DNA of 53,253 nt from Paludibacteraceae bacterium. GTDB taxonomy: Bacteria; Bacteroidota; Bacteroidia; Bacteroidales; Paludibacteraceae. Shown piece by piece: positions 7,201 through 53,041 of this stretch (positions within the stretch are counted from its first letter, which is position 1; every line of letters starts with the position of its first letter). The stretch is taken from positions 1 to 53,253 of the forward strand of contig JAFSJN010000008.1 of the NCBI GenBank assembly GCA_017439235.1, given 5' to 3'. A program made the position numbers and the translations under genes. The notes under the pieces were generated by a model that saw nothing but the letters and a program-made list of their open reading frames with translations, was not told where the DNA came from and ran no database searches.

Positions 7201-7431
7201 TACCTGACCGATAAGACCACTAAGGCCTTCCGTTGCTACTTCCACTTCGCTTCGCCCACGCTCATCCAGGGACGTAATGCACGCGTCATCTTCCGTGACG
7301 ACGTAACTACCGACCTCGAGGACGAGACATTTGAAACTGCTCCTGCGGTACAAAAGATTATCCGCAACGGACAACTCATCATCATCCGCGACGGAGTAGA
7401 GTACAACGCTCAAGGACAAGTAGTTAAATGA
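1300..7431 (+). CDS. Giant modular secreted surface protein (2043 aa; Big2, beta-propeller, beta-helix)
   Basis: The protein has a signal peptide at 1-21 ending in VWA-AEL. By eye the domain order is: a beta-sandwich plus propeller (about 22-480); a Big2 Ig-like domain (486-565); a right-handed beta-helix/pectin-lyase-like region with repeated 'KNC', 'ENNTF' and 'NNIF' turns (570-1010); a second Big2 (1045-1130); a second sandwich-propeller (1140-1540) with the signature DGHGGWWIAQ; a third Big2 (1548-1640); an InlB-like repeat with a long insert ending in FMGWYDN...LYALW (1645-1825); a beta-rich C-terminal domain; and a 25-residue tail shared with seven other proteins here. No catalytic residues are evident. 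An adhesin or surface glycan-binding role is inferred. The N-terminal propeller (about 1640-2700) is more A+T-rich than the rest. A run of eight G lies in the signal-peptide codons. It may be cotranscribed from the promoter at 428; no separate promoter was found. The leader contains ATTAACCC at 1274-1281. Confidence 0.9.
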   Translation: MRRFTLSVLFALFAGGGVWAAELNIYASGLRLHGASPVTGENQVHIDYFLNAPATDLKFVVLDATTGAEKTSVTIPAGDANANYTKGLHEDVVVDLSSFFGAGDTYKWAIRATGTTVNNYSKRTDDSEKYQFFGGRGIAVDNSFESDYFGTVYVTNYGGVSKMNAKRTTQTGVYAFGPGLNQINSSAYIGGVTWGGNSGVQWAIGRPGVGPDGTVYVTGGSATSSGVWMINPASPTGNFLPVFGGSIANSGTATNGTTVIHNCVMDCYVEGSGADRKLYIFDNIYNTSGTTNSGNIFRYDIGNLSSVWTSAPSATIYNDATNGNKIQGGDCSIAPDGNGGWWISQYKAGNGSASVPCLIHVTNGVIDYNSGTTITSSYQGGMAVSVDGKRLALGTTRNTSQNNIAVYDVEYNSNNVPTLTLRVTIPWTGGQRNAKGMAFDIANNLYAVDNNAEMFVAFATHGSTEFTTPAASSRTIVLGSYIPEVHVTGVTLDETSKTVTVGESFTLTATVAPNDASDKSISWSTSNSSVATVADGVVTTKAVGTATITVTTTDGNKTATCDVTVDPKAPLAGNYNIGGDAPDFASLYEAFKYAEDWGISADVTFYICADLNENHNVGITNNTAYTIAVRPDAATKRTIQYGSQADNAGPSGHVVIGATNAIDFNTTIATRNILIDGSYNNEGQYLEFRAGTQGGRTIVIYGDVANTVIKNCRIINPRTSSTNYAVEIRTEKSTDHYPNGVGFENCYIQATGSANTQAVQFNGSQSSTSAGDPANCYFRGCEITAKLRCVFFNEVNGATFENNTFRMPAASAGYLAHGIMGNAQTGTIVVRGNKFIEMATTNAAAGAYGIQAITASGGATKWIIENNYFAGLNATASGTISDKDFALTYVRCGDLCELRHNTFYMPSLTKKPGTALMSATPITCVYLAGTAEHVVKNNIFVSAETEANISLIRGSLNANVLNNVYYHNGGNAAIVAGAATKTTWDEFTAGGANAGSVWNNPAFVNAAEGDLRLTISDETLKMARLTEVLTDIEGTSRPDPTFAGAHELIPVDVTSVTINATDMVLAPGAVKTLTAEVLPDNTTYTNLTWASDNAAVTINPATGQLTAVSAGTAHITATIGGVTSDAITVEVSNPVAHILPYNLNRTLNGDQNSYTFTFKSNIAATSGKILFYQGGVYQGEVAITNPIVAGENSVYVAKTSLPQIDGVMTWAVQLTAAENKVIAEMTDESAGIYNFYLPQGLAIDNSPESSWFGNIYITQPVNGDTDGHTERTKAQQAGLFVYDPLLNELNPTNQGYSMGVTLPAANRHGFKRVNVDAQGNVYVNSGSAIYKASPADFTTSTTLAESKFTAINSFCMDGDIFYVMDNGTALKKLQGGTTTEIMSDASRLVSSAATDNTVLQDGHGGWWIAQGRAEADIYYSLLHVNASSHAIDFSIYNNNNANLLSDCNPKSMRGAIALNSDKTILALGSNKSVIFFDIVYDGDGTPTVTRKNWTLPTLGYNIDGVAFDYADNLYVVSASVERLYMFTLPKADNTTLVPAKSTLTVDAQEHIAVTSITLSQTSASLEIGEGLDLVATCLPETATDKTVEWSSDNTSVAEVNPTTGHVTAVGVGTAHIKATSTADAVESESCEITVYTLDFNVTWETNGATYTTTLLSSNADLWSQFMTGYNTYYVAKGKSARAIQPMTAVATFAYWGVIDLLTDPISPWKWLGDYMLETADAQSVALTTETEWTTALQDFFSCTAVIVDFATAGQVAQWLPLWKDANNYLPATMRAEDAMPTIRRGAYTFMGWYDNSECTGTPVASVTADITLYALWYAPLTLDETAANADNIAANNGRTINVTFNRRFTVADGWYTLVLPFDLTAAQMAEAFGADYRLCELETSYLKSETMMYLRFRDVDDLEAGKPYLFKTGVDITDDIVFNAVTINNATPQVVTDKVTMIGLYDQTVVGASDLNYYLGYEDYLYEYLTDKTTKAFRCYFHFASPTLIQGRNARVIFRDDVTTDLEDETFETAPAVQKIIRNGQLIIIRDGVEYNAQGQVVK
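1342..1349 (+). repeat. G8 homopolymer inside signal-peptide codons
   Basis: Eight consecutive G residues encode the Ala-Gly-Gly-Gly-Val stretch of the signal peptide. A gain or loss of one base by slippage would abolish the 2043-residue product after about 15 codons, so the tract could act as a phase-variation switch. Confidence 0.8.
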
Positions 7432-7435
7432 TATA

Positions 7436-7495
7436 TTAAAAATTACGACTTAGGAATTAAAAATTTGAAATTTGAAATTTGATATTTGCAATAAT
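7436..7495 (+). repeat. AT-rich short-repeat leader before small ORF
   Basis: This is low-complexity sequence between the giant gene's stop and the ATG at 7496. It holds AATTAAAAATTTG followed by about three tandem copies of AAATTTG. The same AATTAAAAATT word recurs upstream of the other small ORF at the far right of the window. It could be a leader, a promoter-like element, or recombination-prone filler. Confidence 0.6.
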
Positions 7496-7624: not shown

Positions 7625-7674
7625 ATCTGCTCTTCGCTATTAAAAAGTGCGGTTTCGGCCGCTTAGGTAACATG

Positions 7675-7698: not shown

Positions 7699-7730
7699 TG
7701 TGTGTTTAATGCATAAAAACTTTGTTTTTA

Positions 7731-9769: not shown

Positions 9770-9774
9770 TTGTT

Positions 9775-11913
<2,139 letters not shown>

Positions 11914-23379: not shown

Positions 23380-26300
23380 ATGAAGAAAGTGCTACTCTTA
23401 TTGGTTGCAGGAATGCTCTCCGGTGTCATGCTGGCTGACATAACTGTGACAGGTGTAGTGACTCAGGCTGAAGACGGCGAGACCGTTATCGGTGCCAGTA
23501 TCCAGGAAAAGGGTACTACCAACGGTACGATAACCGATTTTGACGGAGCCTATGTCATTACCGTGAAAGACAAAGCGACACTGGTAGTCAGTTATGTGGG
23601 CATGAAGACACAGGAAGTGAAAGTTACCGGCCCCAAGCATGACGTTGTCATGCAATCTGAGGCGGAGCTGATCGAAGAGGTTGTGGTGACTGCCATGGGT
23701 ATTAAACAAGAAAAGAAACGACTGAACTTCGCCGTGCAGAACGTCGGTGCAGAAGATTTGACAGAAGGTCAATCGGCTAACCTGCTCAACTCGCTACAAG
23801 GTAAGGTCGCCGGCGTCAACGTTACTACGGGCGGCGGCTCGCCTAACTCGGGCAGTCAGTTGATTCTGCGTGGTATTACATCTATCAGTTCTTCGCAATC
23901 GAACGAACCTTTGGTTGTTATAGATGGTATGCCAATGGTTGGTGGCGTTGGAGATATTAACCCCAACGATATTGAGTCGGTTACGGTGCTGAAGGGCGTT
24001 GCCGCTTCTGCATTGTATGGATCTGAAGGTTCCAATGGTGTACTGATGATTACTACCAAGTCGGCTAAGCAAGGTAAGGTTCAGGCTACCGTCAATGCTA
24101 CGTGGCAGTTCGATACGCCGGCTAACCTGCAGAAGGTACAAGGTCTGTTTATGCCGGGTGCCGGTGGATTTTATAAGGAGCAGACCCTCAACGGTTGGGG
24201 ACCAACAGTAGGAAGTTTGGATACGTATAACAATGTGCGTAACTACTTCAAGGACTACGGCTTCTACCACAAATACGATATCTCGATGACCGGCGGTACG
24301 GAGAAATTCCAAGCCATGGGTAGTGTATCGTATTCCAAGGCAGACGGTATTGTGGTGAACGACTACAGACGTAAAATTACAGCATTGCTCAAGGGCTCTT
24401 ATTCACCTAATAAGTATGTGACATTCAGCCTGATGGGTAATGTTATATGGAACCAATACCGTAGTGCGGGAAGTATTTCCTCTATCTATTCATGGCCGAT
24501 TACGGACGACATTACCAATTATAAAACAGAGAGTGGTGAGATCCGCTATTTGTATTTTGCAGACGAGAAAGCCAATTCGCCTATCTCACCTCTGTATAGC
24601 CGCTATTGCGATTGGGGCGTGAATAAGAATACGCGTACTCTGGTGCAAGGATCATTGGAGATTCATCCTGTAAAAGGCTTGAATATCTCTGCCAGAGTAG
24701 GTATGGACCAAAATAACTATTTCTATGACGGTTATTCGGTACCTCGCTTCTCAAATATTACTATAGTTGATGAGCCCAATATTACCAATCCGTACCTCAC
24801 TCAAGAGCAATTGGAAAAGATTAATCAGAGTTTGTTAGGTTCGTATAGCTATTCGCAATCTGAACGACGTCTATTGACTGCCACGTTTATGGCTACCTAT
24901 CGTTTGGATCTCCCAAAGGGATTCGGTATGGACTTTATGATAGGTAGTGAAATTAAGCAGAATGAAAGCGTTTCTTCCAGTATCAGTGGTGATCAATTTA
25001 TTATCCCCGGTATCTATAGTATCCAAAACTTAAATCGCGATAGAAGTACACAAACCTTTAATGCCACCCAAAGTCATACATTAAGTCGTATCGTCAGTGG
25101 TGTATTTGGTGAAGTTCGTGCAGACTATAAGGGTTTGGCAAGCTTGAGCGTAACTTCTCGTTGGGATTGGTCTTCTACTCTCGACTGGTCAAAAATGCCG
25201 TATGTATACCCATCTGTTACTGCCGGTTTGACTTTCTCGGAGATAATTCCGGGTTGGAATGAGACCAAGAATAACTGGTTCTCATATGGTAAGTTGCGTG
25301 GCAACTTTGCGCAGGTTGGTAAATGTCCTCCTCCGTATTTGTTTGACCGCCACTTTATTCAGTTCCAGACCTTGCCGGATGGTGGTTATAGTGCTAATCC
25401 TGCTCATTCGGTCGGCTTTAAACTTGTTCCCGAAATGAATACTTCATGGGAAATCGGAGCAGACTTGAAGTTCTTGAATAATCGCTTGCGTTTAGATGTG
25501 GCTTATTATAGCCAAATAGTAAAGAATCAGATCGTTACGGTTCGTGTAAGCCACACTACAGGTCATGTGTTGCAGACGCGTAACGAGGGTAGTGTAAAGA
25601 ACCAAGGTATGGAGATTACCCTGGAAGGAGATATTATTAAGCTTAATGGCTGGTTATGGACAGCCGGATTGAATATGTCCTTCAACCGCGGTCGTGTAAC
25701 CGGTCTGCCGGATGGTATGATGGAGATTCAAGGTACTCAGTACGGCGATATCTTCCCGACGGCTTACTTGCATGGTTCGACAACGGCTATTTCCGGTAAG
25801 GACTATCAGCGTAACGAAAATGGCGATATCATCTGTGATGCCAACGGTTATCCGCAAATCAACCCCAATAAGTCGGTGCTGATTGGTAACCGTGAACCTA
25901 AACTGCTTATGGGTTTGTATACCTCGGTTAAATGGAACGGATTGGCATTATCGATGCAGTTCGATGGCCGTATAGGTGGCGACGTAGTGAATGTAACCGG
26001 TCGTGGCTTATGGTCGAACGGTATGCATATGATGACAGAGAACTATCGTGGACGTCAGGTGGTTTGGAAAGGTGTGGTAGCTGCCGGAACGGATGCTAAT
26101 GGCAAGACGATTTATGAGCAGAATACCAAGCCTATCGTAATGGATGCCAATACAATAATCAACAACTATTATAATGTAAGTTCCAACTTCTTGGAGGACG
26201 GTTCGTATATGCGCTTGCAGTATGTGACCTTGTCCTACGAGTTTGCTAAGTTGCTCAAGAACGTGAAGGGTATTGAGAATATCAAACTCTCCTTCACGGG

Positions 26301-26451
26301 TACAAACCTCTTCCTGATAACCCGTTATACGGGTTCAGATCCTCAAATTAATGCCAATACATCCGGTGCAGGTACCGGTTCGGCAGGTATTGATAATTAC
26401 GCTATTCCGCGCACTCGCGGCTATGCGTTGTCATTACAAGTTAACTTCTAA
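23380..26451 (+). CDS. SusC/RagA-family TonB-dependent outer-membrane transporter
   Basis: A 1023-residue outer-membrane barrel that imports ligand captured with its SusD partner, driven by TonB. After the signal peptide (about 1-19) comes a carboxypeptidase-regulatory-like domain (22-100). The TonB-box-like EEVVVTAMG, the plug (NLLNSLQGKVAGVNV...GSQLILRGITS, VLKGVAASALYGSEGSNGVLMITTK) and a long beta-barrel follow, ending in LSLQVNF with the terminal Phe usual for such barrels. Part of the barrel (about 24440-25250) is more A+T-rich, as expected for fast-evolving loops. It lies 12 bases before susD. There is no N-terminal signalling (FecR-contacting) domain. The context suggests muropeptides or amino-sugar glycans as ligand. 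Confidence 0.95.
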   Translation: MKKVLLLLVAGMLSGVMLADITVTGVVTQAEDGETVIGASIQEKGTTNGTITDFDGAYVITVKDKATLVVSYVGMKTQEVKVTGPKHDVVMQSEAELIEEVVVTAMGIKQEKKRLNFAVQNVGAEDLTEGQSANLLNSLQGKVAGVNVTTGGGSPNSGSQLILRGITSISSSQSNEPLVVIDGMPMVGGVGDINPNDIESVTVLKGVAASALYGSEGSNGVLMITTKSAKQGKVQATVNATWQFDTPANLQKVQGLFMPGAGGFYKEQTLNGWGPTVGSLDTYNNVRNYFKDYGFYHKYDISMTGGTEKFQAMGSVSYSKADGIVVNDYRRKITALLKGSYSPNKYVTFSLMGNVIWNQYRSAGSISSIYSWPITDDITNYKTESGEIRYLYFADEKANSPISPLYSRYCDWGVNKNTRTLVQGSLEIHPVKGLNISARVGMDQNNYFYDGYSVPRFSNITIVDEPNITNPYLTQEQLEKINQSLLGSYSYSQSERRLLTATFMATYRLDLPKGFGMDFMIGSEIKQNESVSSSISGDQFIIPGIYSIQNLNRDRSTQTFNATQSHTLSRIVSGVFGEVRADYKGLASLSVTSRWDWSSTLDWSKMPYVYPSVTAGLTFSEIIPGWNETKNNWFSYGKLRGNFAQVGKCPPPYLFDRHFIQFQTLPDGGYSANPAHSVGFKLVPEMNTSWEIGADLKFLNNRLRLDVAYYSQIVKNQIVTVRVSHTTGHVLQTRNEGSVKNQGMEITLEGDIIKLNGWLWTAGLNMSFNRGRVTGLPDGMMEIQGTQYGDIFPTAYLHGSTTAISGKDYQRNENGDIICDANGYPQINPNKSVLIGNREPKLLMGLYTSVKWNGLALSMQFDGRIGGDVVNVTGRGLWSNGMHMMTENYRGRQVVWKGVVAAGTDANGKTIYEQNTKPIVMDANTIINNYYNVSSNFLEDGSYMRLQYVTLSYEFAKLLKNVKGIENIKLSFTGTNLFLITRYTGSDPQINANTSGAGTGSAGIDNYAIPRTRGYALSLQVNF

Positions 26452-26463
26452 TCTTCTACGCAT

Positions 26464-28317: not shown

Positions 28318-28335
28318 CCGCTAAAACGAAAAGAT

Positions 28336-29202: not shown

Positions 29203-29211
29203 TCTGAGCTT

Positions 29212-30873: not shown

Positions 30874-30890
30874 TTTCGGCGCAAAAACGA

Positions 30891-33389: not shown

Positions 33390-33397
33390 AACCATAA

Positions 33398-33417
33398 ATT
33401 AACCCTCATTATTAACC
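33398..33417 (+). repeat. ATTAACC leader repeat
   Basis: ATTAACCC at 33398-33405 and ATTAACC at 33411-33417, 13 bases apart, lie in the short leader of the next gene. The same word appears in the leaders at 1274 and 41356-41393. Confidence 0.5.
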
Positions 33418-33431
33418 AAAATCACACGAGT

Positions 33432-35894: not shown

Positions 35895-35904
35895 CCTGAT
35901 TTTC

Positions 35905-35937
35905 ATACCCTGACCCGCCTCGCGCGGGTTGGGGTAT
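35905..35937 (+). terminator. GC-rich hairpin without U-tract (possible attenuator)
   Basis: A stem formed by ATACCC...GACCCGC and GCGGGTT-GGGGTAT follows the stop by 11 bases. The T-run expected of an intrinsic terminator is missing (ATTCCCCTATT). It may reduce, protect or partly stop the transcript inside the operon. Confidence 0.5.
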
Positions 35938-35969
35938 TCCCCTATTACCCCTTTAATAACAACCTACTT

Positions 35970-38339
35970 ATGAGCCACACTCTGAAATATAGCCTCTTGC
36001 TGATGCTTCTTCCGCTTTGCGGAATAGTGGGTGCTGAGAATATCATGCTGGGCACCGTTGAGCATACTATTGATACGCTCGAAACATTCCGTTGCGGACC
36101 GGGTAGCACCTATATCCAGGTGCAGATGCGCCGCGTGAGTGATGGCCAGGGACGTCTGGATGCTTTCTTGATGCTGGTGGATAGAAATAATCCCTATATC
36201 TCGTTCGAGGAAGTGCTCGGTGGCGACCGTGTAGTAGGTACTGAGGCTGTCAGCAAGATGGCCGAACGCAAGAATAAGGAGTCGGACACGCGTATCTTCT
36301 TTGGAGGAACCAATGGCGACTTCTTTGCTACGACGGGAGACATTGGTCGCCCGACCGGCATGACCATTGTCAACAACGAATTTGCCTATATACCCGATAA
36401 CCATGGCGGACGTCGGGTAGGGGCTATCAATGAGGAGATGCAGGGCGCTATTGCTACAACCGCTGCCTTCTCCGGAAAAGTGATAGTAGGCGATACTACA
36501 CTTTCCCTTAAACGCATCAATTATACGCGAGGCGAGAATCAACTTGTCCTCTATAACTACCATAACGGCACCTCTACCGGCACCAACGAATACGGTAACG
36601 AAGTGCTGCTTGAATTGTGCGAAGGTAATTCTTGGCACACCAATTGTTCCGTTCGTGCTATTGCGCGCGCCATTGAAAAGGGCGTGGGCAATATGTCCTA
36701 TGCCCGCGGACAAGTGGTATTATCTGCTCACGGAACCAATGCGGATGCTATTAACGCGCGCCTGAAAGTGGGCGATACCATAACTATCAACTTGACTTTT
36801 AAACTCGATGGAGTTAAACAAAATATATCCCAAAGTATCGGCGGCGACAACTATGCACTTATCGTCGATAGCGGTCGCGTTGTAGAATCGGATTTCTGGA
36901 ACGAGTCGCATCCGCGTACGGCTTTTGGACAAACGATAACGGGCGATACGCTTATCTTCTGCGTTGTCGACGGTCGCGCCAAATCGGTCGGTTGTACCAC
37001 GCAAGCACTCGGAGCTATCATGCAGCGTCATGGCGCTTGGAAGGCTGTCAACTGGGATGGAGGCGGTTCCAGTCACCTGTGGCTGCGCAACGTAGGATTG
37101 ATGAACGCCGGTTGCGAGAGTGCCGAACGTGCTGTCGGTAACGGCATGTTTGTCGTAGCTACCGTGCCGGATGTGGATAATACGATTGCGGAAATACAAG
37201 CTTATTCGCCTGTCTTGCGCCTGCCCCGCTATGGTATGCATAAGCCTAAGATATTGGGATACAATAAATACGGCCTCTTGCTCAATACGGATGTTACCGG
37301 CGTTACACTCAGCTGTGATCCCGAGGTGGGCTATATCAATGCAGAAGGCGCATTCGTCTGTCTGGGCGATGGCGAACTAAAGTTGCACTATGGCGAAATC
37401 GTCGGCTCGGTACAAATACGCGTGGCCGATAAAGCTGAAATAGCGATGCGTCACGATACCGTCGTTATCTACGATTGTTCGGACTATGCCGTAGAGGTAA
37501 TGGCTACCGTGGGCAAGAACAGCGTCTTGATTCAGCCTTCCGCATTGTCGTGGCAAGTGGCAGACCCGGCGATTGCTACTATTAGTGAGACGGGGCGGCT
37601 CAATGGTCTCAAAGACGGTGAGACGGAGATTTACGGCACCTTAGGCGAGGTAACAGACACCCTCGTAGCGCGCGTGCTGATACCGTCTACCAAGCCGTTG
37701 TTATACGACAATTTTATCGAAGACTTTAGCAATCGTTGGATACTCAAACCCTCATCTACGGCTTGGAATACGGAAATGAAGGATATCAACGGAACGGCTA
37801 CTCTATGCCTTAACTTTACCGGAGGACGTCAGGCTAATGTGCGTTTGACTGCCGGTAGTGAATTATTCAGCGCCCCCACACATCTGGAATTACGCTTTAC
37901 GCCGCAGGGCAATTTGATTCAAAAGGTAACTCTCGGCTTGCGTGCTCATAACGGTGTCTCTACCGTCAATGTCTCTACCGAGGACTTTCTCGCCGGGCAG
38001 ATGAATATATTTGCCGTTGACTTGGATAGCCTCTTCAATGCGGACGCTGCTGCCAACGAACGAGAGGTAATACCGGGCAATATAGGTATCTATCCGGTGA
38101 CTCTGGAGTTTATTACCTTAGCTTTCAATACCTCTGCTCCCAAGCAGGAATATGCTATACCCTTCGACGGTCTATGGCTCCGTTACCGAGGCGATACAAC
38201 GCCTTTGGATGAAGTGCGCGAAGATACTTTTGGAGCAGAGGGAACGCATCCTAAATTGTTTATTAACGGCCGCATGTATATTCGTCGCGGCGCAACCTTA
38301 TATACTGTAACCGGACAACCTGTCCCTAATACACATTAA
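35970..38339 (+). CDS. NAGPA-domain phosphodiester glycosidase, secreted (789 aa)
   Basis: The signal peptide ends VGA-ENI. The middle (about 100-405) carries the phosphodiester-glycosidase (NAGPA) signatures: HPRTAFGQ (His314), CVVDGR, NWDGGGSS (Asp363) and ERAVGNGMF. This family removes GlcNAc (or related sugars) from phosphodiester linkages. Residues about 490-575 form a Big2-like domain (WQVADPAIATISETGRL). A beta-sandwich follows, then the shared tail (HPKLFINGRMYIRRG and on). Within an amino-sugar locus it could trim GlcNAc-phosphate decorations from wall glycopolymers or other glycans. The gene stops 2 bases before the amidase gene. Confidence 0.9.
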   Translation: MSHTLKYSLLLMLLPLCGIVGAENIMLGTVEHTIDTLETFRCGPGSTYIQVQMRRVSDGQGRLDAFLMLVDRNNPYISFEEVLGGDRVVGTEAVSKMAERKNKESDTRIFFGGTNGDFFATTGDIGRPTGMTIVNNEFAYIPDNHGGRRVGAINEEMQGAIATTAAFSGKVIVGDTTLSLKRINYTRGENQLVLYNYHNGTSTGTNEYGNEVLLELCEGNSWHTNCSVRAIARAIEKGVGNMSYARGQVVLSAHGTNADAINARLKVGDTITINLTFKLDGVKQNISQSIGGDNYALIVDSGRVVESDFWNESHPRTAFGQTITGDTLIFCVVDGRAKSVGCTTQALGAIMQRHGAWKAVNWDGGGSSHLWLRNVGLMNAGCESAERAVGNGMFVVATVPDVDNTIAEIQAYSPVLRLPRYGMHKPKILGYNKYGLLLNTDVTGVTLSCDPEVGYINAEGAFVCLGDGELKLHYGEIVGSVQIRVADKAEIAMRHDTVVIYDCSDYAVEVMATVGKNSVLIQPSALSWQVADPAIATISETGRLNGLKDGETEIYGTLGEVTDTLVARVLIPSTKPLLYDNFIEDFSNRWILKPSSTAWNTEMKDINGTATLCLNFTGGRQANVRLTAGSELFSAPTHLELRFTPQGNLIQKVTLGLRAHNGVSTVNVSTEDFLAGQMNIFAVDLDSLFNADAAANEREVIPGNIGIYPVTLEFITLAFNTSAPKQEYAIPFDGLWLRYRGDTTPLDEVREDTFGAEGTHPKLFINGRMYIRRGATLYTVTGQPVPNTH

Positions 38340-38341
38340 CC

Positions 38342-41300
38342 ATGAAACGACTATTTTTATTTACTCTTTCCGCCTTGTGCCTGACTGCGTTGATGCAGGC
38401 CGGACAGATTCGCGTCCTTAGCGACCGCTATGTGGCTGACGGTTGGCATGCACGCATGATGGGACCCTCTACCGTGATGTATTCGACGGTCGAGAATGCA
38501 GATTACTTGCCTTCTGAGGCCGAGTCTGCTACCTACGCTTGCGAGGATGAAGAACTGCGACTCTGTCTGTATCAAGATGGCCACAAACGCATCCTTGCGC
38601 CGGCCGGAACCGAAGTCAACTATGTATGGGTAAGTCTTTCTCCCGATGGTAAGCGCATCCTGTACAACACCAAGTTCGGTACCGCTATTTGCGACCTGCA
38701 GGGACGCGAGTTGGTCAATTTCGGACGTCTGGACGCTCCTGTATGGTACGGCAATGACTATGTAGTCGGTATGCGCGACGAGGATGACAGTCACAACTAT
38801 ACTTCTTCCTGTATCGTCATAGCGGCTGCGGACGGCTCTATGCAGCAGGACTTGACTGCCCCTGCGGAGTTTGGTATGTATCCGTCGGTACTGCCCGAGT
38901 ATGGCCAGATAGCGTATAATACTTTGGATGGTCAGATTCGTCTGCTGCAACTCAATCTCAGTGAGCAGCCCGTGGATATGAATATTGCTCCGAAGGCCAT
39001 CTTAGCGCAGGAACGGCAGATTCAGCGTGCGCCGTCTTATGCTGCCGCTAAGGCTGCCATAGGCAATATGAAGCCCGCGGATGTTCGCATTTATATCAAT
39101 CCCGGTCACGGCGGACACGACTCGGATGACCGTAATATCACTATCTATCCCTTCAAACAAGGCGACCCCAACGGCTTCTGGGAGTCGAACTCCAACCTCG
39201 ATAAGGGTCTCAAACTCAATGAATGGCTGAAGGCCTTGGGCTTTCAGACTAAGATGTCGCGTGTTACAAATACCACGGCTGACGACCGCGCGCTGTCTGC
39301 TATTGTAGCCGAGGCCAATGCGTATCGCTCCAACTTCATGCTCTCTATCCACTCCAATGCCGGTGGAACATCCAATATGGTGCTCATGCTCTATGCCGGT
39401 AAGGATGAGAACGATACACATTCTTATATTGACGTCAAGGATCCAACTACGGAGAAGCACTCCCGCGATATCTCTACTATGATAGGTAACTACCTGTACG
39501 AGAATAAGATTACTACCTGGGCTACGGCTCCGCGTATCGTAGGTGATAAGACCTTTGGTCGTACGGCAATGGGGTGGAGCAACGGCTACGGCGTATTGCG
39601 TAACCTGACGGTCCCTGGTGTTATCTCTGAGGGCTGTATGCACGACTATATTCCGGAGACCTACCGCTTGATGAATATGGACTATAAGTATAAAGAGTCC
39701 TGGTATTTCATGCGCGTGTTCTGCGAATACTTCTGCGGCATCAAGCAAACCACCGGTGTTATCGCCGGTCAGGTCCGTGACCAATTCAATAAGCAGGAGT
39801 TCCCGGTCTTCAACAAGATTAAGAACTCCCGCGACCAATACTTGGCTTTGGACCGCGCTACTGTTCGTCTGCTGCGCAACAACGTGGAAATCGGTTCGTA
39901 TGTTACCGATACTTTGTACAATGGTGTCTTCTTCTTCTGGAATCTCGAGCCCGGCCAGTATACCCTGCGCGCTGATGTCGACCATTATTATGTAATGGAT
40001 ACCGTTGTTGAGGTCGTGGCTAACGAGATGACCTATCAGGATATGTTCTTGCAGAAGAAACGCGAGAATCGTCCTGAGGTGCTTAGTTACAGCCCGCATG
40101 TAGCTTCTATCACGGATAGCGTCAATGTGGCGGAGCCTATTATTCTCAACTTCAACTACGATATGTGGGAGGAGCCGACTCGCGCTGCCTTCTCTATCGT
40201 GCCCGCAGTAGAAGGTACGCTCACCTTCACCAATTCGCAGCGCACCTTGACTTTTACGCCAAAGACCGTCTATGAGCCGGGTACGGAATATACGGTAACT
40301 TTGGCTAAGACGGCTGCTCACCCGGATACCCACTATCCCAATACTCTGGCTGAGGACTTCGTCTTCCGTTTCCGCACCAAGAATCGTCCTAACCTTTCGG
40401 TCAAGCTGACTTATCCGGCTGACGGCGAGACGGGTATTGCCCTCAAGCCCAGTATCTACATGCTCTTTGATGAGAAACTGAGTTCTGCTTCTACCTATAA
40501 ACTCTTTACCGTCAAGGATGACGGCACCTTCTCCTTCACGCCCGCGTCACGTACGTTTAAGAAGAATAGTGTCGAGTCGCCTTACGGTTCGGCTTCCTTT
40601 GACGTCTCTACCGAACTGCAACCCAATACCCGCTATACGGTAGTTATCGATGCAACGGTTAAGGATACCGACAACATCATGCTCATGAAACCGTATACGT
40701 TCTCCTTTACTACCGGTGACGCTACCGTAGAGAAAGAGGGCGAGGTCATCAATAGCATGGATGCTGTCGCTTTCGAGATTGATGCGGATAAAACCAACGG
40801 CTTGGAGGACAAGACGCTCTCTACCGGTGGTACGTCTATCCGTACCGAAGGTCAGACCTGCAACTCTATCAGTTATAAGTTCTCTAAGAACGAGCCGGAC
40901 GCTATCTGCTTCCTCAAACCTCTGGATTTGACGCAAATCTTCCGTTCTGTGGACAAGTTTATCATCGATGTCTATGGCGACTTCTCAATGAATGAGCTCT
41001 ATGCCGAGTTCTCTACCGAAGGAGATATCCATCGTTATAAAGTCTGCACTCTTGACTTTATCGGATGGCGTTACTGCGTTATCGACCTGCAGGAGACCGA
41101 CTTGCCGACCGGCGTCGAGTTCAACTTCACGGGCTTGGTACTCATGAAAACGCAGCAACAGCCTATCTTGTGCAACTCGGGCAAGTTCTATCTGGACCGT
41201 CTGGCACGTGTGCAAGGCGAATGGACTGCGCTGCCTGTTGTGGAGGCCAATGCGGATGCTACTGGTAAACATATCGTGGATGGTCACTTGTTGATTACTA

Positions 41301-41347
41301 CTCCTAATAAGAACACATATGACGCTAAAGGCGCTATGTTGAAATAA
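38342..41347 (+). CDS. Secreted N-acetylmuramoyl-L-alanine amidase (Amidase_3) with SbsA-type Ig domains
   Basis: The signal peptide ends MQA-GQI. Residues about 25-215 look like a TolB/WD40-type partial propeller (LSPDGKRILYNTKF). The amidase domain (about 248-465) shows the zinc ligands His256 (NPGHGGHD), Glu281 (WESNSN) and His337 (SIHSNAGG) and the catalytic Glu430 (SEGCMHDY). A carboxypeptidase-like Ig domain (LEPGQYTLRADV) and two SbsA/Big_5-type Ig domains (about 575-800) follow, then a C-terminal sandwich and the shared tail, here the most divergent copy (KHIVDGHLLITTPNK). It would release stem peptides from MurNAc, yielding sugars for the kinase-MurQ route. Confidence 0.93.
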   Translation: MKRLFLFTLSALCLTALMQAGQIRVLSDRYVADGWHARMMGPSTVMYSTVENADYLPSEAESATYACEDEELRLCLYQDGHKRILAPAGTEVNYVWVSLSPDGKRILYNTKFGTAICDLQGRELVNFGRLDAPVWYGNDYVVGMRDEDDSHNYTSSCIVIAAADGSMQQDLTAPAEFGMYPSVLPEYGQIAYNTLDGQIRLLQLNLSEQPVDMNIAPKAILAQERQIQRAPSYAAAKAAIGNMKPADVRIYINPGHGGHDSDDRNITIYPFKQGDPNGFWESNSNLDKGLKLNEWLKALGFQTKMSRVTNTTADDRALSAIVAEANAYRSNFMLSIHSNAGGTSNMVLMLYAGKDENDTHSYIDVKDPTTEKHSRDISTMIGNYLYENKITTWATAPRIVGDKTFGRTAMGWSNGYGVLRNLTVPGVISEGCMHDYIPETYRLMNMDYKYKESWYFMRVFCEYFCGIKQTTGVIAGQVRDQFNKQEFPVFNKIKNSRDQYLALDRATVRLLRNNVEIGSYVTDTLYNGVFFFWNLEPGQYTLRADVDHYYVMDTVVEVVANEMTYQDMFLQKKRENRPEVLSYSPHVASITDSVNVAEPIILNFNYDMWEEPTRAAFSIVPAVEGTLTFTNSQRTLTFTPKTVYEPGTEYTVTLAKTAAHPDTHYPNTLAEDFVFRFRTKNRPNLSVKLTYPADGETGIALKPSIYMLFDEKLSSASTYKLFTVKDDGTFSFTPASRTFKKNSVESPYGSASFDVSTELQPNTRYTVVIDATVKDTDNIMLMKPYTFSFTTGDATVEKEGEVINSMDAVAFEIDADKTNGLEDKTLSTGGTSIRTEGQTCNSISYKFSKNEPDAICFLKPLDLTQIFRSVDKFIIDVYGDFSMNELYAEFSTEGDIHRYKVCTLDFIGWRYCVIDLQETDLPTGVEFNFTGLVLMKTQQQPILCNSGKFYLDRLARVQGEWTALPVVEANADATGKHIVDGHLLITTPNKNTYDAKGAMLK

Positions 41348-47400: not shown

Positions 47401-47541
47401 ATTGACAACAATGGTTCTACTACCGGTTGGGAGAATATCAACGACGAGAACATCAGCGTAACGAAGTTCATCCGCAACAACCAACTCTACATCCTCCGCG
47501 ATGGCGTTCTCTACAACGCTCAGGGTGCTGTAGTACGTTAA
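41410..47541 (+). CDS. Second giant modular secreted surface protein (2043 aa)
   Basis: The signal peptide ends MFA-GSY. By eye the order is: an N-terminal beta-sandwich (20-165); sandwich and OB-like region (170-475); a sandwich-propeller (about 476-890) with LPQGIAVNN...FFGNMYLT and DGRGGLWVAQ; two InlB-type repeats with inserts containing QRTGWPKSANF and QRTGWPKSADF (893-1280); two Big2-type domains (1285-1455); a propeller-like region (1460-1760); another Big2 (1767-1850); a C-terminal sandwich; and the shared tail (VTKFIRNNQLYILRDG and on). It has exactly the same length as the protein at 1300, with which it shares modules in a different order. Strong codon bias (GCT, GGT, GTT) suggests abundant expression. 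It has no catalytic motif; a surface-layer, adhesin or glycan-binding role is inferred. Confidence 0.9.
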   Translation: MKKFSFLFAVLFAAMTMFAGSYTIEFKDGGNSSDSNTGLTSTNISDYVASGAENLSAIAASGKVYNAATGYGLKFGNSSNSGSVTLTLAKAIKPTSIVMSASQYGNTEGSGMLQDSTVDMTGGGGKGKFVDYTMTYDGNTEVTTITVGTKAKRGYVKSVTVNFEGEGPAPIVAPYCATEVGHLFLETPDVNSYVLLSIGALDGKTIVRIDQDAAKNTAMFDFLLVNYAGGSATTGADVAEGGDNKIAVAFDTPTAVNDSITLEILWSTVNWDDRWMVQNVKVPAKAACASAVVPLEVINCAQANGLAKDAKAELNTVTVAYVNGAYVYVQDASGMALVYRTGLGLKAGDVVSGMEVKGAPYNNLPEVIPTNTPSDWTIVEGAAPEFATATAAPVAADVNKVMVWENVAIEGAFEGTKTTIKGAFGEDSIAFYNQFQLSQTFEAGKAYNIVGAVAIYKENVQVYFISAEEYVIPAAQRILAYGLNVAPATGKYIFEFYANMAAAEANLVFYKAGVLAGRVSAGNVVAGKNTVEVAVEDLPGAEGDEMTWAVEVKAAPVVELTEFTDATRGIYDFYLPQGIAVNNCTESAFFGNMYLTEIDGASDGGTDRTKTQKGGIFGYDLLLNELNPTNQGWLPEGMTAGTNRQDMKRITVDNKDGMIYFNSRTAIYKINPADMTTWTNILAGAEGITQVNACYAENGVVYFMDNANTTNGGGTLKKMAADGTISTIVQSALWGVQDNGICGDGRGGLWVAQHRWNADAYSILTHVTAAGVIDYVVDKNASAEVKALFPQNNNASYRGQVAYNAKENLLAFGGNKVATVFKVTYDAETGAPALERWIQTGAIGGNIDGLSFDYAGNLYVLSASVERMYAYGVPVEANEVIVPAQVAQVVTKAAPAPAAFNVKWDLDGGQLVFADKADMFAQFMLDNGVTDAMTLAEYKALDEPLAAPSGICVKLLTCKAMVDMPEKWGWLKTYIQEFSATQEGASALDDNCTSAAWRYAAAAFFTEGQRTGWPKSANFAEAGQVAAYSPAMNAAGYYYELPATMTAESAMPIVVKADHEFLGWFNGAEKVEKVMADCSLKANWNRLVYKVEFVAPFAFPNPMYAADKDAMYKNLNEDYNTFYNQTSDWGVLSTFTAVTDGMPTKGAQFDLTFFANEDMKAKWGWLLDYCDTITARQSTTEAPLTMPSTNASFMRYSVNAFFMNTQRTGWPKSADFALCGIDTEEWKSFWGYSYTLPEVITEEYTLPKMYRKNYEYGGWFTDAEYTNAITKVGPKDNLTVYAKMTPTATALLSITLNKQDTVDLVMPATDQLVVTYNPENAANKNVTWYTENEAIATVVDGLVTPVMPGIVKITVISEESALEASVVYRITAAAGAVTGVTLNEASMTLELGAVAKLIATVAPEDATNKAVTWESSSKAVSVDQEGNIKADTVGVATITVTTVDGGYTATCKVTVPEPFYKAINVEKVWELAIPTTLADIGDCRNGMGWNGKFYVTDKKAQKVRVFTKDGEDANAAIEFNAAADSLKIGTGIAIDDAGNIAVGTNFPNSVTGLYIIKNGTTTPVYIDLTGANALPQNGRCDQITAFGDFFSEAGGMVAYYTSGATQIQYAKIANGALVEVKAINAAVTKGASPSQVYALNADMTFVSHARGSAMQKYNGTEVVTLSLKNVVNNDLGAAFFQVAGQNLAAYKVGTVHSSEFSIRNLDAEQFLVDKDGNSVFYFVDNKAASNNSYANFSKVEKINDYASYLYVFTSGKGAAMYKVYKDVAVTGVALDKTEATLNALETLQLTATVAPAEATVKDVTWGSSDENVATVDENGLVTAVAAGNATITVTTVEGGYTATCALTVSAVTYYRLTDAKQLVDGAKMIIVGGDSVTMGDKQNNNFKANAPVVVANNAIASLPTNATVITLGKVAKGYTMYTSYGYLVAGTSNSNYLKTVETIPTDNDLAYWTITVNPAATVIVNVDTNSKRNTIRYNTGSAIISAYATGQEDVQIFIDNNGSTTGWENINDENISVTKFIRNNQLYILRDGVLYNAQGAVVR

Positions 47542-47732: not shown

Positions 47733-50198
47733 ATGAAGAAATTTCTCTCAATGGCCGTGTTGGTAATGCTGGCTGTAGTGTGCGCAACAGCGCAAGTAAC
47801 TCCTTCTCCTTCGCCCATTCCTAAGGGATATACCGGCGAGGTCGTCCTGACATTTGATCCTACTAAAGGTAACGGTGGTATGGTTTCCGCTACCGAATGC
47901 TATTCGCATATAGGATTGATTACTGCCGACTCGAAGGACATACACGACTGGAAGTATATTAAACTCGAAAACGGGTGGGGTACGAAGAACGAGCCCAAGT
48001 GGACCATGGTCGAGAATAAATGGCAATTGACCATTCCCAATCTCTACGAATGGTTCGGCTGTCCTTCTTCTACTGATATTACAGCTTTAGTCATGGTCTT
48101 CCACGATGGTAATGGCAGCGCCTCCAAACAAGGTAAAAGGGTTAACAATGGTGACATCCTCGTTTATATCGGACAAGACGTTCCTGATGACATCTGGGAT
48201 GGCTTCACTCCGGAGCCGGCGCAGTCGCAGGCTCGCCCCAGTGGCGTTGATATGGGTATCTATTATGGCGCAGATGGTACGTCTGTCACCCTCTGTACTT
48301 TTGCTGCGGCTTGCAAGACGGCCAACGATCCTTCGGAATTGGTACCCGCCCAGCACGTCTTCCTCTTGGGCGATATGACCAACTGGATGCTCAGCAACGA
48401 TTACCAACTCAAGCGTGATGGCAACTATTTCTGGATTACCCTCAACGGATTGACTCCCGGTCAGGAATACCGTTTCCAATACGTAGTAGTTCGCGCAGAT
48501 GGCGTCAAAGTGCAGATTAGCGATCTCTTCTCCGAGAAACTGATTCATTCCGATGACGCTTACGAACCTCGTACCCTGGATCCCGATTTGATTGGTTATC
48601 CTCTCTCGGGCGCGGATGGTGACTATGTAACGGTTATCCAGCCCGGCAAACCGAAATTTGAGTGGTCTCAAGAAACACTCAACTTCCAACGCCCCGATAA
48701 GAACAACCTTGTCATCTACGAGGCTTGGGTACGTGACCATACGCATGCCAGAAGTTGGCAGGGTATGCTCGAACGCCTGGATTACTACCAAAACCTCGGT
48801 ATCAACTGTCTCGAACTGATGCCTATTACCGAGTTTGACGGCAACGAGAACTGGGGCTACTCGCCTAACCACTATTTTGCGGTAGATAAAGCCTATGGTA
48901 ACCCTGAAAAATTGAAGGTCTTGATTGACGAATGCCACAAGCGCGGTATCGCCGTGGTTTTGGATATGGTCTTCAACCATGCTACAGGTCTCAATCCTAT
49001 GAATAAACTCTATCCCTACGGAAAAGACCTCAAATTCAATCCTTGGTTCAACGTCAATGCTCCTCACCCCGATAATGTCTATGAGGATTGGAACCATGAC
49101 TTTGCTCCTGCTCACAATATGTTTATCCGCGCCCTCAAATATTGGATTGAGGAATACAAGGTCGATGGCTATCGTATGGACCTCAGCCATGGCTTGTGCG
49201 GTAAGAAATACAACGCTTACGACAACCTCAAAGACTACTATACCAAAGCTATTCAGCCTTATGGCGCATACTTTATTTTGGAGCATTGGGGTGATAGCGC
49301 CCATGTGGAATGCCCGAAACTGGTGAACGACGGTATGCTTTGCTGGGCTAATACCTGTGAACCTTTCCAACAAATGGCTATGGGCTGGATGAAGGATAAT
49401 GACAATCTGAACCCTGCCAATAATGATGGCTATGTATCCTATTGCGAGTCGCACGACGAGGAGCGCTGCTTCTTTAAGGCAAAACAATGGGGTGACGGCG
49501 TTATGAAATCCGACGAAGCCGTACGCGTAGCACGTATACCGGCTGTGGTGGGCTTCCAATGCTTGCTCAATGGCCCGCAGATGTTCTATCATTTTGCTGA
49601 ACTTGGCTTCGACAACAGTAAGTTCCAAAACAAAGAAGGTATTTGGGGCTCTGATGGTGTCAAAGCCTATGGCGCTTCTGTAGCTACACCTTCTGTATCG
49701 TACGAAGTCAAGATGAAGGAGAAACTTCGCCCCGAAGAGCAAGGGTGGTTCGCTATCGACGGTATTCGTATGAAGGCTTATAAGAAACTCGGACAGGCTA
49801 TTCAACTGCGTACGCGCATCATGCCGGAAGTATTTGCCGGCAATCCAACCAAATCTTCGCTCGGTAGCGGTCTCTATCTGCGTACTATCCAATGGGGCAA
49901 CGATGTCTTCGTAGCAGCTAACTTCAGCGCCTCTTCGGCAAAGGCGGCAACCCTGCCTTCCGGAACATGGTACGACTATTATACCGGCGCAACGGTATCC
50001 GGTTCGGCTAATGTGCTGCCCGGCGAACTGAAAATCTTCACCAGTACGAAGGTTGACTTGCCCGACTTTGTGGCCAATATTGCTGACCTGTCTACGTTCG
50101 AGGGCGATAAGAAGTGCTACAAACTGCTGCTCGACGGTCGCATCATCATCGTGCGTGATGGCCAAATGTTTGACTTAACCGGACGGAATATTAAATAA
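47733..50198 (+). CDS. Secreted GH13 alpha-amylase-family enzyme (821 aa)
   Basis: The signal peptide ends ATA-QVT. Residues about 30-150 and 170-270 are beta-sandwich modules; the second resembles an E-set/CBM48 (HVFLLGDMTNWM...GNYFWITLNGL). The GH13 barrel (about 330-720) has all four regions: DMVFNH (411-416); YRMDLSH with nucleophile Asp483; ILEHW with acid/base Glu517; and ESHDEE with His574/Asp575. A C-terminal beta-domain and the shared tail (CYKLLLDGRIIIVRDG and on) complete it. It should cut alpha-1,4 (or branch) glucans outside the cell; E-set plus GH13 order resembles branching or debranching types. It has its own promoter and is 11 bases before the pectinesterase. Confidence 0.92.
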   Translation: MKKFLSMAVLVMLAVVCATAQVTPSPSPIPKGYTGEVVLTFDPTKGNGGMVSATECYSHIGLITADSKDIHDWKYIKLENGWGTKNEPKWTMVENKWQLTIPNLYEWFGCPSSTDITALVMVFHDGNGSASKQGKRVNNGDILVYIGQDVPDDIWDGFTPEPAQSQARPSGVDMGIYYGADGTSVTLCTFAAACKTANDPSELVPAQHVFLLGDMTNWMLSNDYQLKRDGNYFWITLNGLTPGQEYRFQYVVVRADGVKVQISDLFSEKLIHSDDAYEPRTLDPDLIGYPLSGADGDYVTVIQPGKPKFEWSQETLNFQRPDKNNLVIYEAWVRDHTHARSWQGMLERLDYYQNLGINCLELMPITEFDGNENWGYSPNHYFAVDKAYGNPEKLKVLIDECHKRGIAVVLDMVFNHATGLNPMNKLYPYGKDLKFNPWFNVNAPHPDNVYEDWNHDFAPAHNMFIRALKYWIEEYKVDGYRMDLSHGLCGKKYNAYDNLKDYYTKAIQPYGAYFILEHWGDSAHVECPKLVNDGMLCWANTCEPFQQMAMGWMKDNDNLNPANNDGYVSYCESHDEERCFFKAKQWGDGVMKSDEAVRVARIPAVVGFQCLLNGPQMFYHFAELGFDNSKFQNKEGIWGSDGVKAYGASVATPSVSYEVKMKEKLRPEEQGWFAIDGIRMKAYKKLGQAIQLRTRIMPEVFAGNPTKSSLGSGLYLRTIQWGNDVFVAANFSASSAKAATLPSGTWYDYYTGATVSGSANVLPGELKIFTSTKVDLPDFVANIADLSTFEGDKKCYKLLLDGRIIIVRDGQMFDLTGRNIK

Positions 50199-50209
50199 AT
50201 CATACTACT

Positions 50210-53041
50210 ATGAAACATCTTCATCTTTTGCTTGCGCTCTGTTTATCTTCTGTAGGCGCTTGGGCTGGTAATGACTTATTGTGGGACTATACGGAAAAAG
50301 CACCGTCAAGTAATCCCGATAACGGCTTGTATTATGAATCCAAGGTAGACGATGGTGTTAAACACACCAGCGGAACCAACAACCTGAATGGTATTAAATT
50401 GAATAGCTCCGGCTATGCTTATTTCCGCAAAGAAGCCGTAGCAGGTAAATTACGCCTCGGCTATGGAGACCGTAAGACGGCTAAAGACGCTTGCGTGAAT
50501 GTGTATACATGGCCGGGAACGCTGGCCGATAAACCGGCTACTACAGCGGGCATGACACTAATCGGTTCGACACAAAAGATTAAGGAATATGGTATTAAAA
50601 CCATCGATTTGACGGCTGAGCAGCAAAATATCTACATCACACGTGGTACAGATGTGGAATCGGTGCTGCAATATATTAATTTCAAAGAAGATGTAGTACG
50701 CTCCTTTGTGGATTTCAAAATCGAATTCCGTGACAATCCGTATTCTGTTCCGCAGCCCGAGAGTGGAGTACTGCCCGAGGGCGTAAGCGTTAATTGTCCT
50801 ACGTACAATGGCCCTCAGCATGGCGTACAAGGCGGAACAATCACCGTTCCGGTAGATGGAACCGTTAAGTTCACCATTGGAGCTTGCCAACATAGCCAAA
50901 CGGACATCACGGTTAAAAAGGACGGTGAGTACTATGCCACCATCAGCAATAAGGCTTTATGTGGCGAACAAAAGCCCAACTACAATCAATTCGTACCGTA
51001 TTACTATTTGGGCGAAGCCGGAATACTTACCTTCGAGTTCGGCAGCCAGACCTACGTACCGTATTTTTTTGCAGAAGCAGCAGATATTACGCCGTGTCAG
51101 GTTATCTTCAAAGACCAAAATGGTAACGAACTCAATCGTATTGATACCTACGAAGGAGCTACATTAGGTATTCTACCCGAGGTCAGTGTCCTGCCGGAAT
51201 TCTGTGACCAGTGTTTCTTCCGTGGATGGTTCTATACGAGTAACAAGAAAGCGAAGATTGGCGATATCATCAGCGGTAACACGACCATCCAAGCTAAGGT
51301 GACTCCGCTGGAAACCGCTACTGTAGGTAGTGTGCAGACCTATAACTTTGCTGACCAGACCTTCTATCCCGAGGATCACGAGACGGTAGAGGTGCACGGC
51401 GGTGAATTCCACGATGCTACCCACGGCTGGTATTTTACCGGTAATGAGTCGATGTTTGATAATCTGGGTGACATAAAAGGTATTATCAATGTGAGTGTGG
51501 CAGGCAAGGCTATTGTCGTTATTACTGCTTGTACATATTCGGAGAACGGAACTATCGAAATGGCGTCTAACGAAGAATGGCCGGGAGTTAGTTTCACGGT
51601 GGAGAAAGATGTTACGACGGACGGTAAGGAGTTTGTGGTAGAATGGCCGTACGATAGAGCGACTCGCTTAACAATCCTTCTTCATAACAAGCAATACATC
51701 CACAAAGTGGTCGTATATAATGTACAGGACTTCCCGCAGAAGGACGAAAAAACCGGTTATTATATCGTTCCCGCTAATGACGTAGCAGCTTTCCTTATGA
51801 CGCTGGCTCAAGCCAATGCGGAAGGAAATGCAAAGATCTTCCTGCCCAATGGTTATTATGATATGGGCGAGACCGTACTAACTGAGATTAATGCGAATAA
51901 TATTTCTATTATAGGACAATCAATGGAGAAGACGATTATCCGCAACGCTCCCAGTTATCTCATCGAGCAAATCAATACGACTGCTACCCTGAAGATTACC
52001 AAAGATGTACAAAATACCTACTTCCAAGACTTGACGCTGCAAAACGACTTGGATTATTATCACAATGATGATGGCCGAGCCGTATGTCTTTGGGATCAGG
52101 GTAAGAAGACTATCTGCAAGAATGTTCGAATGATTTCTCACCAGGATACCTATTACAGCAACCTGATAGGTGGTACTAAGTATTTTGAGAATTGTGAGAT
52201 TCACGGTACGGTGGATTATATCTGCGGCGATGGTAATGTGTACTTCAAAAATACTGATTTGATTTGCGAACAACGTTACAAAGGTGGTAATGGCGGTGCC
52301 GATTATATTACAGCCAGCAATGCCGACAAATCAGACAAGGGTTACGTGTTCGAATCATGCCGCGTACGCTATGCCGAGGGCATTCAAGGTACTAAGCCTG
52401 TTATCAGTTTCGGCCGAAGCTGGAATAACGCTCCTAAGACAGTATTCCTCAATACCGTATTGGATGATAGTAATGGTACCATCGTGATGACTAAGGAGTC
52501 CGAAAAACCGAAAGAGCGAGTTGCACGTTGGACAATAGGCGCAATGAATGCTCTTCCTGAGTGCTTCGGCGAGTATAACTCTGTCGATAATAATGGCAAT
52601 GTGGTATCTCCTGCCAGCAATATCGTAACCTTTATCTTGGGCGAGGAGACGAAAGAGATGAATACAATCCTGAGCGCTGAACAAGCTGCAAAATATACGA
52701 TGGAATATACTCTCGGCAACTGGGCTGCTACGGCTGCCAACGATGCTAAGCAGGTATTGGCCTTGCCGGTGGCTGATGATGCTATATACTTGGTAGAGTT
52801 TCCTGACGGCAACTGCGCCATTATGACTGGCGAGGAACTGAATCGTAAAGATTTGCTGCCTGAGACTACGTTCCGTAGAGCAAATGCTCGTGGTGGCTTT
52901 GGACCTAAGAATGGTGAAAGTACTGCTATTGAGTCGGTATTAACGATAACGGAAGGCGTCTGTAATAAGCAGATAATTGATGGCCGCATCGTCATCTTTC
53001 GAAACGGCCAATCATACACCATAACAGGCCAGAACTTGTAA
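50210..53041 (+). CDS. Secreted CE8 pectinesterase with N-terminal beta domains (943 aa)
   Basis: The signal peptide ends AWA-GND. The first half (about 20-510) holds beta-sandwich regions, including an InlB-like piece (FFRGWFYTSNKKAK). The C-terminal right-handed beta-helix (about 515-800) is a CE8 pectin methylesterase: SIIGQSMEKTII, GRAVCLWDQG, SHQDTYY with Gln645 and acid/base Asp646, GTVDYICGDGNVYF with nucleophile Asp669, and GRSW with Arg736. It would demethylate homogalacturonan at the surface or outside the cell. The shared tail (CNKQIIDGRIVIFRNG and on) ends the protein. It is the last gene of a two-gene unit with the amylase-family enzyme. No pectate lyase is seen in the window. 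Confidence 0.93.
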   Translation: MKHLHLLLALCLSSVGAWAGNDLLWDYTEKAPSSNPDNGLYYESKVDDGVKHTSGTNNLNGIKLNSSGYAYFRKEAVAGKLRLGYGDRKTAKDACVNVYTWPGTLADKPATTAGMTLIGSTQKIKEYGIKTIDLTAEQQNIYITRGTDVESVLQYINFKEDVVRSFVDFKIEFRDNPYSVPQPESGVLPEGVSVNCPTYNGPQHGVQGGTITVPVDGTVKFTIGACQHSQTDITVKKDGEYYATISNKALCGEQKPNYNQFVPYYYLGEAGILTFEFGSQTYVPYFFAEAADITPCQVIFKDQNGNELNRIDTYEGATLGILPEVSVLPEFCDQCFFRGWFYTSNKKAKIGDIISGNTTIQAKVTPLETATVGSVQTYNFADQTFYPEDHETVEVHGGEFHDATHGWYFTGNESMFDNLGDIKGIINVSVAGKAIVVITACTYSENGTIEMASNEEWPGVSFTVEKDVTTDGKEFVVEWPYDRATRLTILLHNKQYIHKVVVYNVQDFPQKDEKTGYYIVPANDVAAFLMTLAQANAEGNAKIFLPNGYYDMGETVLTEINANNISIIGQSMEKTIIRNAPSYLIEQINTTATLKITKDVQNTYFQDLTLQNDLDYYHNDDGRAVCLWDQGKKTICKNVRMISHQDTYYSNLIGGTKYFENCEIHGTVDYICGDGNVYFKNTDLICEQRYKGGNGGADYITASNADKSDKGYVFESCRVRYAEGIQGTKPVISFGRSWNNAPKTVFLNTVLDDSNGTIVMTKESEKPKERVARWTIGAMNALPECFGEYNSVDNNGNVVSPASNIVTFILGEETKEMNTILSAEQAAKYTMEYTLGNWAATAANDAKQVLALPVADDAIYLVEFPDGNCAIMTGEELNRKDLLPETTFRRANARGGFGPKNGESTAIESVLTITEGVCNKQIIDGRIVIFRNGQSYTITGQNL

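Follow-up and report, generated by a model that had tools for sequence, protein, structure and literature searches.

A C-terminal tail of about 25 residues takes the place of the type A CTD on orthologues in Paludibacteraceae and may act as a miniature type IX secretion signal

The closest described relatives of the sequence analysed here are the C-terminal domains (CTDs) that serve as sorting signals for the type IX secretion system (T9SS). In the available portions of the papers cited, type A CTDs are 67–88 residues long (PMC11285876), type B CTDs are 150–235 residues long and use PorP/SprF carriers (PMC12618676), and a type C CTD (ChiA-like, cl41395) is named (PMC10202324). The same portions report that loss of the last CTD residues blocks secretion in P. 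gingivalis (PMC10202324, PMC11285876), and that the last 22 residues of HBP35, comprising motifs D and E, are sufficient for secretion of GFP (PMC10202324). In P. gingivalis RgpB, replacement of the loop between β3 and β4 (Lβ3β4), or exchange of its glycine for arginine, blocks secretion, exchange of this glycine for proline has no significant effect, and the CTD of T. forsythia mirolase has methionine at the equivalent position (PMC11285876). According to the part of a 2024 Nature Microbiology paper that was available, the conserved type A motifs set the fold and make no contact with the translocon save for one lysine (PMC10994853).

The window, by which we mean the whole stretch of 53,253 nucleotides of Paludibacteraceae DNA that was analysed, holds eight genes, all on the forward strand, that encode a common C-terminal tail. 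It ends the products of two genes with Big_2 domains, at 7354..7428 (gene 1300-7431, Big_2/List_Bact_rpt) and 47464..47538 (gene 41410-47541), and those of genes for a GHL10 glycosidase-like protein (33303..33386, gene 30891-33389), a protein that no Pfam family fits convincingly (35817..35891, gene 33432-35894), an NAGPA-family protein (38253..38336, gene 35970-38339), an Amidase_3 protein (41267..41344, gene 38342-41347), an α-amylase-family protein (50121..50195, gene 47733-50198) and a pectinesterase-family protein (52967..53038, gene 50210-53041). A sequence-only reading of this DNA had already described a common tail on these eight genes, and its ends coincide with ours (7428, 33386, 35891, 38336, 41344, 47538, 50195 and 53038). 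From the invariant lysine to the C-terminus the eight tails are 24–28 residues long, and K, I and G are without variation in their alignment. Divergence in that alignment is greatest for the amidase copy, as the earlier reading had it; the extra residues that it noted on the NAGPA copy are present (four), and the GHL10 copy also has four. The carriers, which it described as otherwise unrelated, have recognisable, mostly different Pfam families in seven of the eight cases (Big_2 twice) and none in the eighth. SusC, SusD and both lipoproteins lack the tail, as it stated: they are among the 16 other open reading frames in the window, the best of which scores −0.3 bits against the tail profile. 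Two adjacent genes at 7838-11913, presumably encoding methylmalonyl-CoA mutase subunits, sit between tailed genes.

The tail is matched credibly by no Pfam or NCBIfam model. When the last 119 residues of each of the eight window proteins were scanned against both collections at a maximum E-value of 10, a setting at which the HMMER filters still remove most matches above about 0.1, no T9SS or DUF6383 model was among the matches for any of them; this covers TIGR04183 and PF18962 (type A), TIGR04131 (type B) and DUF6383, with which comparison had been proposed at the outset, and also PF13585 (type B). Three carriers gave a few sub-cut-off matches to unrelated models, and the only match near its cut-off (23.8 bits, cut-off 24.4) was to a GH31 C-terminal domain in the amylase-family protein, situated upstream of its tail. 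A place for the tail inside a solved structure was considered and dropped, the tail profile giving three chance-level PDB matches (best E 0.57). A piece of a catalytic or binding domain was likewise rejected, because the Pfam families of the carriers mostly differ and orthologues swap the tail as a unit.

Like a type A CTD, the tail closes multi-domain, Sec-exported enzymes and adhesins at their extreme C-terminus, is encoded in a genome that has SprA, PorV and PorU, follows a T-x-[IL] linker, and contains a vYdxxGxxv motif with a conserved glycine and often a terminal lysine or arginine. Unlike a type A CTD, it has about 25 residues, lacks the G-x-Y strand and is unmatched by TIGR04183, and its invariant lysine ahead of the first strand is not in the consensus of 72 CTDs from the same genus. 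Type B CTDs are also C-terminal sorting signals of the same machine, but the scan described above gave no match of their models to the tail. PEP-CTERM and LPXTG-type sorting tails, which consist of a hydrophobic segment and a basic end, are comparable as short C-terminal tags on unrelated exported proteins, but the tail has no transmembrane stretch. The last 22 residues of HBP35 are, in the available text, a CTD fragment acting as a T9SS signal, but they are an experimental construct and come from the opposite end of the CTD (PMC10202324). A search of titles and abstract openings, with subscription journals largely outside its range, returned no natural CTD this small and no T9SS signals in Paludibacteraceae; a natural T9SS signal of this size would be new within the literature searched.

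Although described on eight window genes, the tail belongs to a genome-wide set. A profile built from the eight window tails alone (A1) and run against the whole genome from which the window derives (1.49 Mb, 77% complete) gave 53 matches at E ≤ 10 and 48 at E ≤ 0.001. Leaving aside two weak matches (E 0.26 and 0.54), 51 proteins were read; in all 51 the tail lies 0–6 residues ahead of the stop codon, and there were no internal copies. The consensus is approximately K-x-[IL]-x-[ND]-G-[QR]-[LI]-x-I-x-R-[DN]-G-x-x-Y-[ND]-x-x-G-x-x-V. The originally described extent of about 25 C-terminal residues fits the tail itself, but the tag as a whole reaches further upstream: a T[ADGNSTV][ILVM][DEQNR] linker is found 25–45 residues from the end in 32 of the 51 proteins, against 1–4 of 51 in each of four bins further upstream. 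Two of the proteins (C7:94-168 and C8:94-168; L042 and L043) have an identical tail sequence at two contig ends and differing N-termini, a repeat at contig ends, and codons were counted on the 50 tails that remain when one of this pair is omitted. The first lysine and the last glycine of the consensus are present in 50/50 tails. Their codons are mixed (lysine AAG 24, AAA 26; glycine GGA 20, GGC 14, GGT 13, GGG 3), as are those of the tyrosine (TAC 23, TAT 22), an exception being the asparagine preceding the first glycine, which is AAC in 26/26. Mixed synonymous codons at most invariant positions, this asparagine site excepted, speak for selection at the protein level and against recent DNA copying as the source of the tails, an explanation that was dropped. 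Altogether, the pattern is consistent with a long-standing feature maintained by selection. Fresh truncation of a CTD by stop codons was also rejected: 45 of the 51 genes have at least 120 downstream bases, and of the resulting 135 frames, 98 could be scored, with 0/98 above the 1% shuffle level for the second half of a CTD.

The tail replaces type A T9SS CTDs on orthologous proteins. The window contains a probable operon (23380..41347, forward strand) for SusC-like and SusD-like proteins, two lipoproteins, the GHL10 protein, the protein without a family, the NAGPA protein and the amidase, and the same gene order, plus one extra NAGPA copy, is found in a congener (G344, contig C16, 106685-127890). 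Identities between the two are 64% for SusC, 61% for SusD, 45% and 54% for the lipoproteins, 54% for GHL10, 38% for the protein without a family, 47% for NAGPA (40% for its second copy) and 55% for the amidase. The secreted proteins of this operon end in type A CTDs in G344 and in short tails in the window. Four of the five G344 ends (the protein without a family, both NAGPA copies and the amidase) score above the TIGR04183 cut-off; the fifth, that of GHL10, reaches 20.5 bits against a cut-off of 23 and matches the 72-CTD profile, of which it is itself a member. The 72 CTD reading frames behind this profile were taken from the top of a list of 90 places in G344 and a second CTD-rich congener (G354) and are not a random sample; none of them is more than 11 residues away from the stop. 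Homologues among these 72 proteins were found for 32 of the 51 tailed proteins at E ≤ 1e-5 and for 23 of the 51 at E ≤ 1e-20, one of them a second GHL10 protein, 59% identical across some 630 residues.

The exchange was followed through 80 named loci, each containing a GHL10 relative, among which Paludibacteraceae is the label of 13 records and Paludibacter that of 5 more; the four closest of these named records include three Paludibacteraceae MAGs, recovered from the gut of roe deer, cattle and buffalo. Three or more of the four cargo genes are present in 33 of the loci, and their ends were classed at an HMM score of 15, a rule of our own. By this rule 17 loci have CTDs throughout and five have short tails throughout; three combine short tails with one end that we read as a variant short tail, two mix short and mid-length ends (L165 and L166, one L166 end being classed by eye), two combine CTDs with one unclassified end, and four have ends with dockerin-like repeats. 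A further locus with two of the genes only (L186) has one CTD end and one short end. In a midpoint-rooted tree of 56 GHL10 rows, from which the ends were left out, the short state is nested among CTD rows and requires three changes, at least two of which are forced by starred branches, and the tail recurs on a second GHL10 clade. From the survey and the tree, the end module changes as a unit, independently of the enzyme, with the long form apparently the ancestral one.

The distribution of the two kinds of end was compared across genomes. TIGR04183 was found in all 120 genomes of the family and the tail in 34 of them at E ≤ 0.001, spread over 13 of 33 genera: all eight members of the window's genus have 9 to at least 68 copies, and 26 of the 112 other genomes have 1 to 9. 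The best 68 tails and 44 CTDs per genome were scored, so that high values are to be read as at least that number, and on this basis the tail/CTD counts in the eight genus members are 49/7, 68/11, 64/5, 60/3, 49/7, 37/14, 10/37 and 9/41. The two are inversely related (Spearman −0.73, p 0.04, for eight related genomes and with high counts again standing for at least that number). A later search gave 46 and 44 CTDs at E ≤ 0.01 in G344 and G354. In a family-balanced sample of 247 genomes of the order, the tail is present in seven and SprA in 233, including all seven with the tail; because tails occur in only 7 of the 247, their absence from the 14 SprA-negative genomes is no test. Four genomes of this sample from other families (G068, G108, G111 and G201) have one isolated tail match each, at E 2e-9 to 5e-6, and a scan of 56 genomes of a further family (f106), for which there was no internal positive control, gave the tail in none. 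The tail is abundant in one genus, probably of Paludibacteraceae.

In part of this genus the tail has displaced the CTD on most recognisable cargo, and PorU and some other proteins keep a longer CTD. The window's own genome has 12 TIGR04183 places at E ≤ 10, of which eight are at E ≤ 0.001 and five above the cut-off, and none of the 12 overlaps any of the 53 tail places. The best of them is the C-terminus of PorU, which also accounts for the difference between the eight CTDs of this direct search and the seven of the family count at the same E-value. Retention of long CTDs on T9SS parts alone was considered and rejected, since among nine other proteins of this genome scanned with TIGR04183, which have no T9SS-machinery model, seven match at E ≤ 0.01 and three are above the cut-off. 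The same genome encodes a protein with an M6-family metalloprotease domain (L253, 297-3083; TIGR03296, 193 bits) and a weak TIGR04183-like end that, at 16.6 bits, is below the cut-off.

A search for porU, porV and sov homologues had been proposed as a check, and this genome encodes all three of SprA, PorV and PorU, with matches of 2641, 398 and 998 bits. Export signals were scored on the 33 of the 51 tailed proteins whose 5' end is closed within the sequence that was read, the remaining 18 being without such an end: a script assigned signal peptides to 24, seven more were recognised by eye and two are ambiguous. The sole lipobox that the script flagged among tailed proteins sits behind an internal methionine and is not credible. 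Three observations named beforehand as speaking against a sorting tag, namely a tail belonging to a known catalytic or binding domain, tails occurring equally on lipoproteins or cytoplasmic proteins and a genome without a T9SS, were not made.

Taken with the strict C-terminal position, the Sec signal peptides and the presence of SprA, PorV and PorU, the swap with type A CTDs on orthologues supports a sorting tag, and we put the probability that the tail is a miniature, CTD-derived T9SS sorting signal at roughly 0.75, a reading drawn from sequence comparison. Tailed proteins, to judge from their signal peptides, would be exported by Sec. In the periplasm the C-terminal 25 or so residues, behind a linker often containing T-x-[IL]-[DE], would form a β-hairpin displaying the vYdxxGxxv loop that corresponds to the β3-β4 motif of type A CTDs. 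SprA and PorV would take this hairpin instead of the full seven-stranded CTD, and PorU would then release or attach the cargo. Such a signal would have originated as a type A CTD minus its C-terminal half. On balance we also favour the broader proposal that nearly all T9SS addresses of this genus have been rewritten, the Ig-like domain (about 75 residues) giving way to a hairpin (about 25) with the Lβ3β4 loop only, and that this hairpin is read without the C-terminal strands.

The sorting tag proposed by the sequence-only reading is therefore kept, but its suggestion that this might be the end of a T9SS-like CTD is probably wrong. Against a first-half profile of the 72 CTDs, 39 of the 51 tails exceed the 95% shuffle level; part of this score is owed to the shared linker. 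Profile-profile comparison with hhalign aligned YNAQGQVV of the tail with vYdldGrlv of the CTD at a probability of 40%, a weak likeness, and an alignment (A3) of an orthologous GHL10 pair sets the tail in line with the first CTD half. One weak tail match with a longer turn (C21:39845) gets its best score from the first-half profile and looks like an intermediate. Lysine or arginine is the terminal residue in 26 of 51 tails and 35 of 72 CTDs. The motif of Lβ3β4 is recognisable in the tail together with its conserved glycine, so that the invariant glycine of the tail appears to be the Lβ3β4 glycine of the CTD. By sequence the tail has the glycine loop needed for RgpB secretion in P. gingivalis, yet lacks the last strand reported as essential, and this conflict is the main reason for both interest and doubt.

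Alternatively, the tail may be a T9SS signal that goes back to the last two CTD strands (motifs D and E, G-x-Y-I...K) by descent or by mimicry: with HBP35 these motifs are enough for secretion of GFP in the available text (PMC10202324), NGQLYIIRDG of the tail can be fitted by eye onto the G-x-Y-I strand, and the mid-length ends at L165 and L166 retain a QIYIQDGKK-like element. A second-half CTD profile, moreover, places seven of the 51 tails above the 95% shuffle level where two to three are expected by chance. Set against the 39 tails that pass with the first-half profile, the hhalign result and the A3 alignment, this origin seems unlikely, and G.Y[ILVMF], the pattern of the G-x-Y strand, is found in just 2 of 51 tails.

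A second alternative is that the tail directs cargo to another carrier or anchor and has ceased to be a type A-like T9SS signal. The missing type A C-terminal motif would fit this, as would type B CTDs, which have their own carriers in the available text of PMC12618676. A candidate carrier is a second PorV-like protein (110-176 bits), present beside PorV in 14/14 family genomes (L270-L284). This protein, however, is also found in the CTD-rich genomes (G344, G354 and other genera) and so does not track the tail, its match in the window's own, incomplete genome is weak (17.6 bits), and tail and CTD interchange on orthologous proteins of the operon; we regard a switch of carrier as distinctly improbable. 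A new PorV copy that follows the tail was rejected, both proteins being present in all 14 genomes whichever signal dominates. In one of these genomes (G272) the second PorV-like protein is in two pieces, with a TAA stop inside one. PorV itself scores 359-398 bits in six tail-rich members and 393-420 bits in nine others, and a 15-sequence alignment read by eye shows no clear insertion limited to the six. A functionless relic, which the resemblance to a truncated CTD and the block to secretion on CTD-end truncation in P. gingivalis (available text of PMC11285876) might suggest, is scarcely credible given lysine and glycine in 50/50 copies despite mixed synonymous codons, 37 to at least 68 copies per genome in six genus members and recurrence of the tail on a second GHL10 clade.

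If the tail is a miniature CTD-derived signal, the T9SS would need a small loop in its cargo and not a folded domain, the minimal signal would be about one third of the size assumed, and the translocon would read it without the C-terminal strands held to be indispensable. This would bear on the question of how SprA and PorV recognise many dissimilar CTDs, and it would offer a secretion tag for gut Bacteroidota much smaller than present ones. Annotation with TIGR04183 would also miss most T9SS cargo here (eight places at E ≤ 0.001 and 12 at E ≤ 10 in the window's own genome, against 49 tails). Because the proteins of this operon occur with long, mid-length and short ends, they form a natural series for locating the part that bears the signal. 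The mid-length form, YDLLGRP...QIYIQDGKK, ends the GHL10 protein and the amidase at L165 (9986-12526 and 17487-20525) and L166 (9989-12529 and 17520-20555), which are the nearest named relatives of the window operon and carry the short tail on the NAGPA protein and the protein without a family. At other loci (for example L215, L218, L220, L236, L238, L240, L241, L242 and L244) the GHL10 protein has no T9SS domain and ends in two dockerin-like repeats (DVNGDGEVNIADVNAVIDMIL). These repeats also end the neighbouring NAGPA protein, the protein without a family or both, and so form another end module shared between neighbours; most of the relatives concerned bear the label Muribaculaceae, Prevotellaceae or Bacteroidales.
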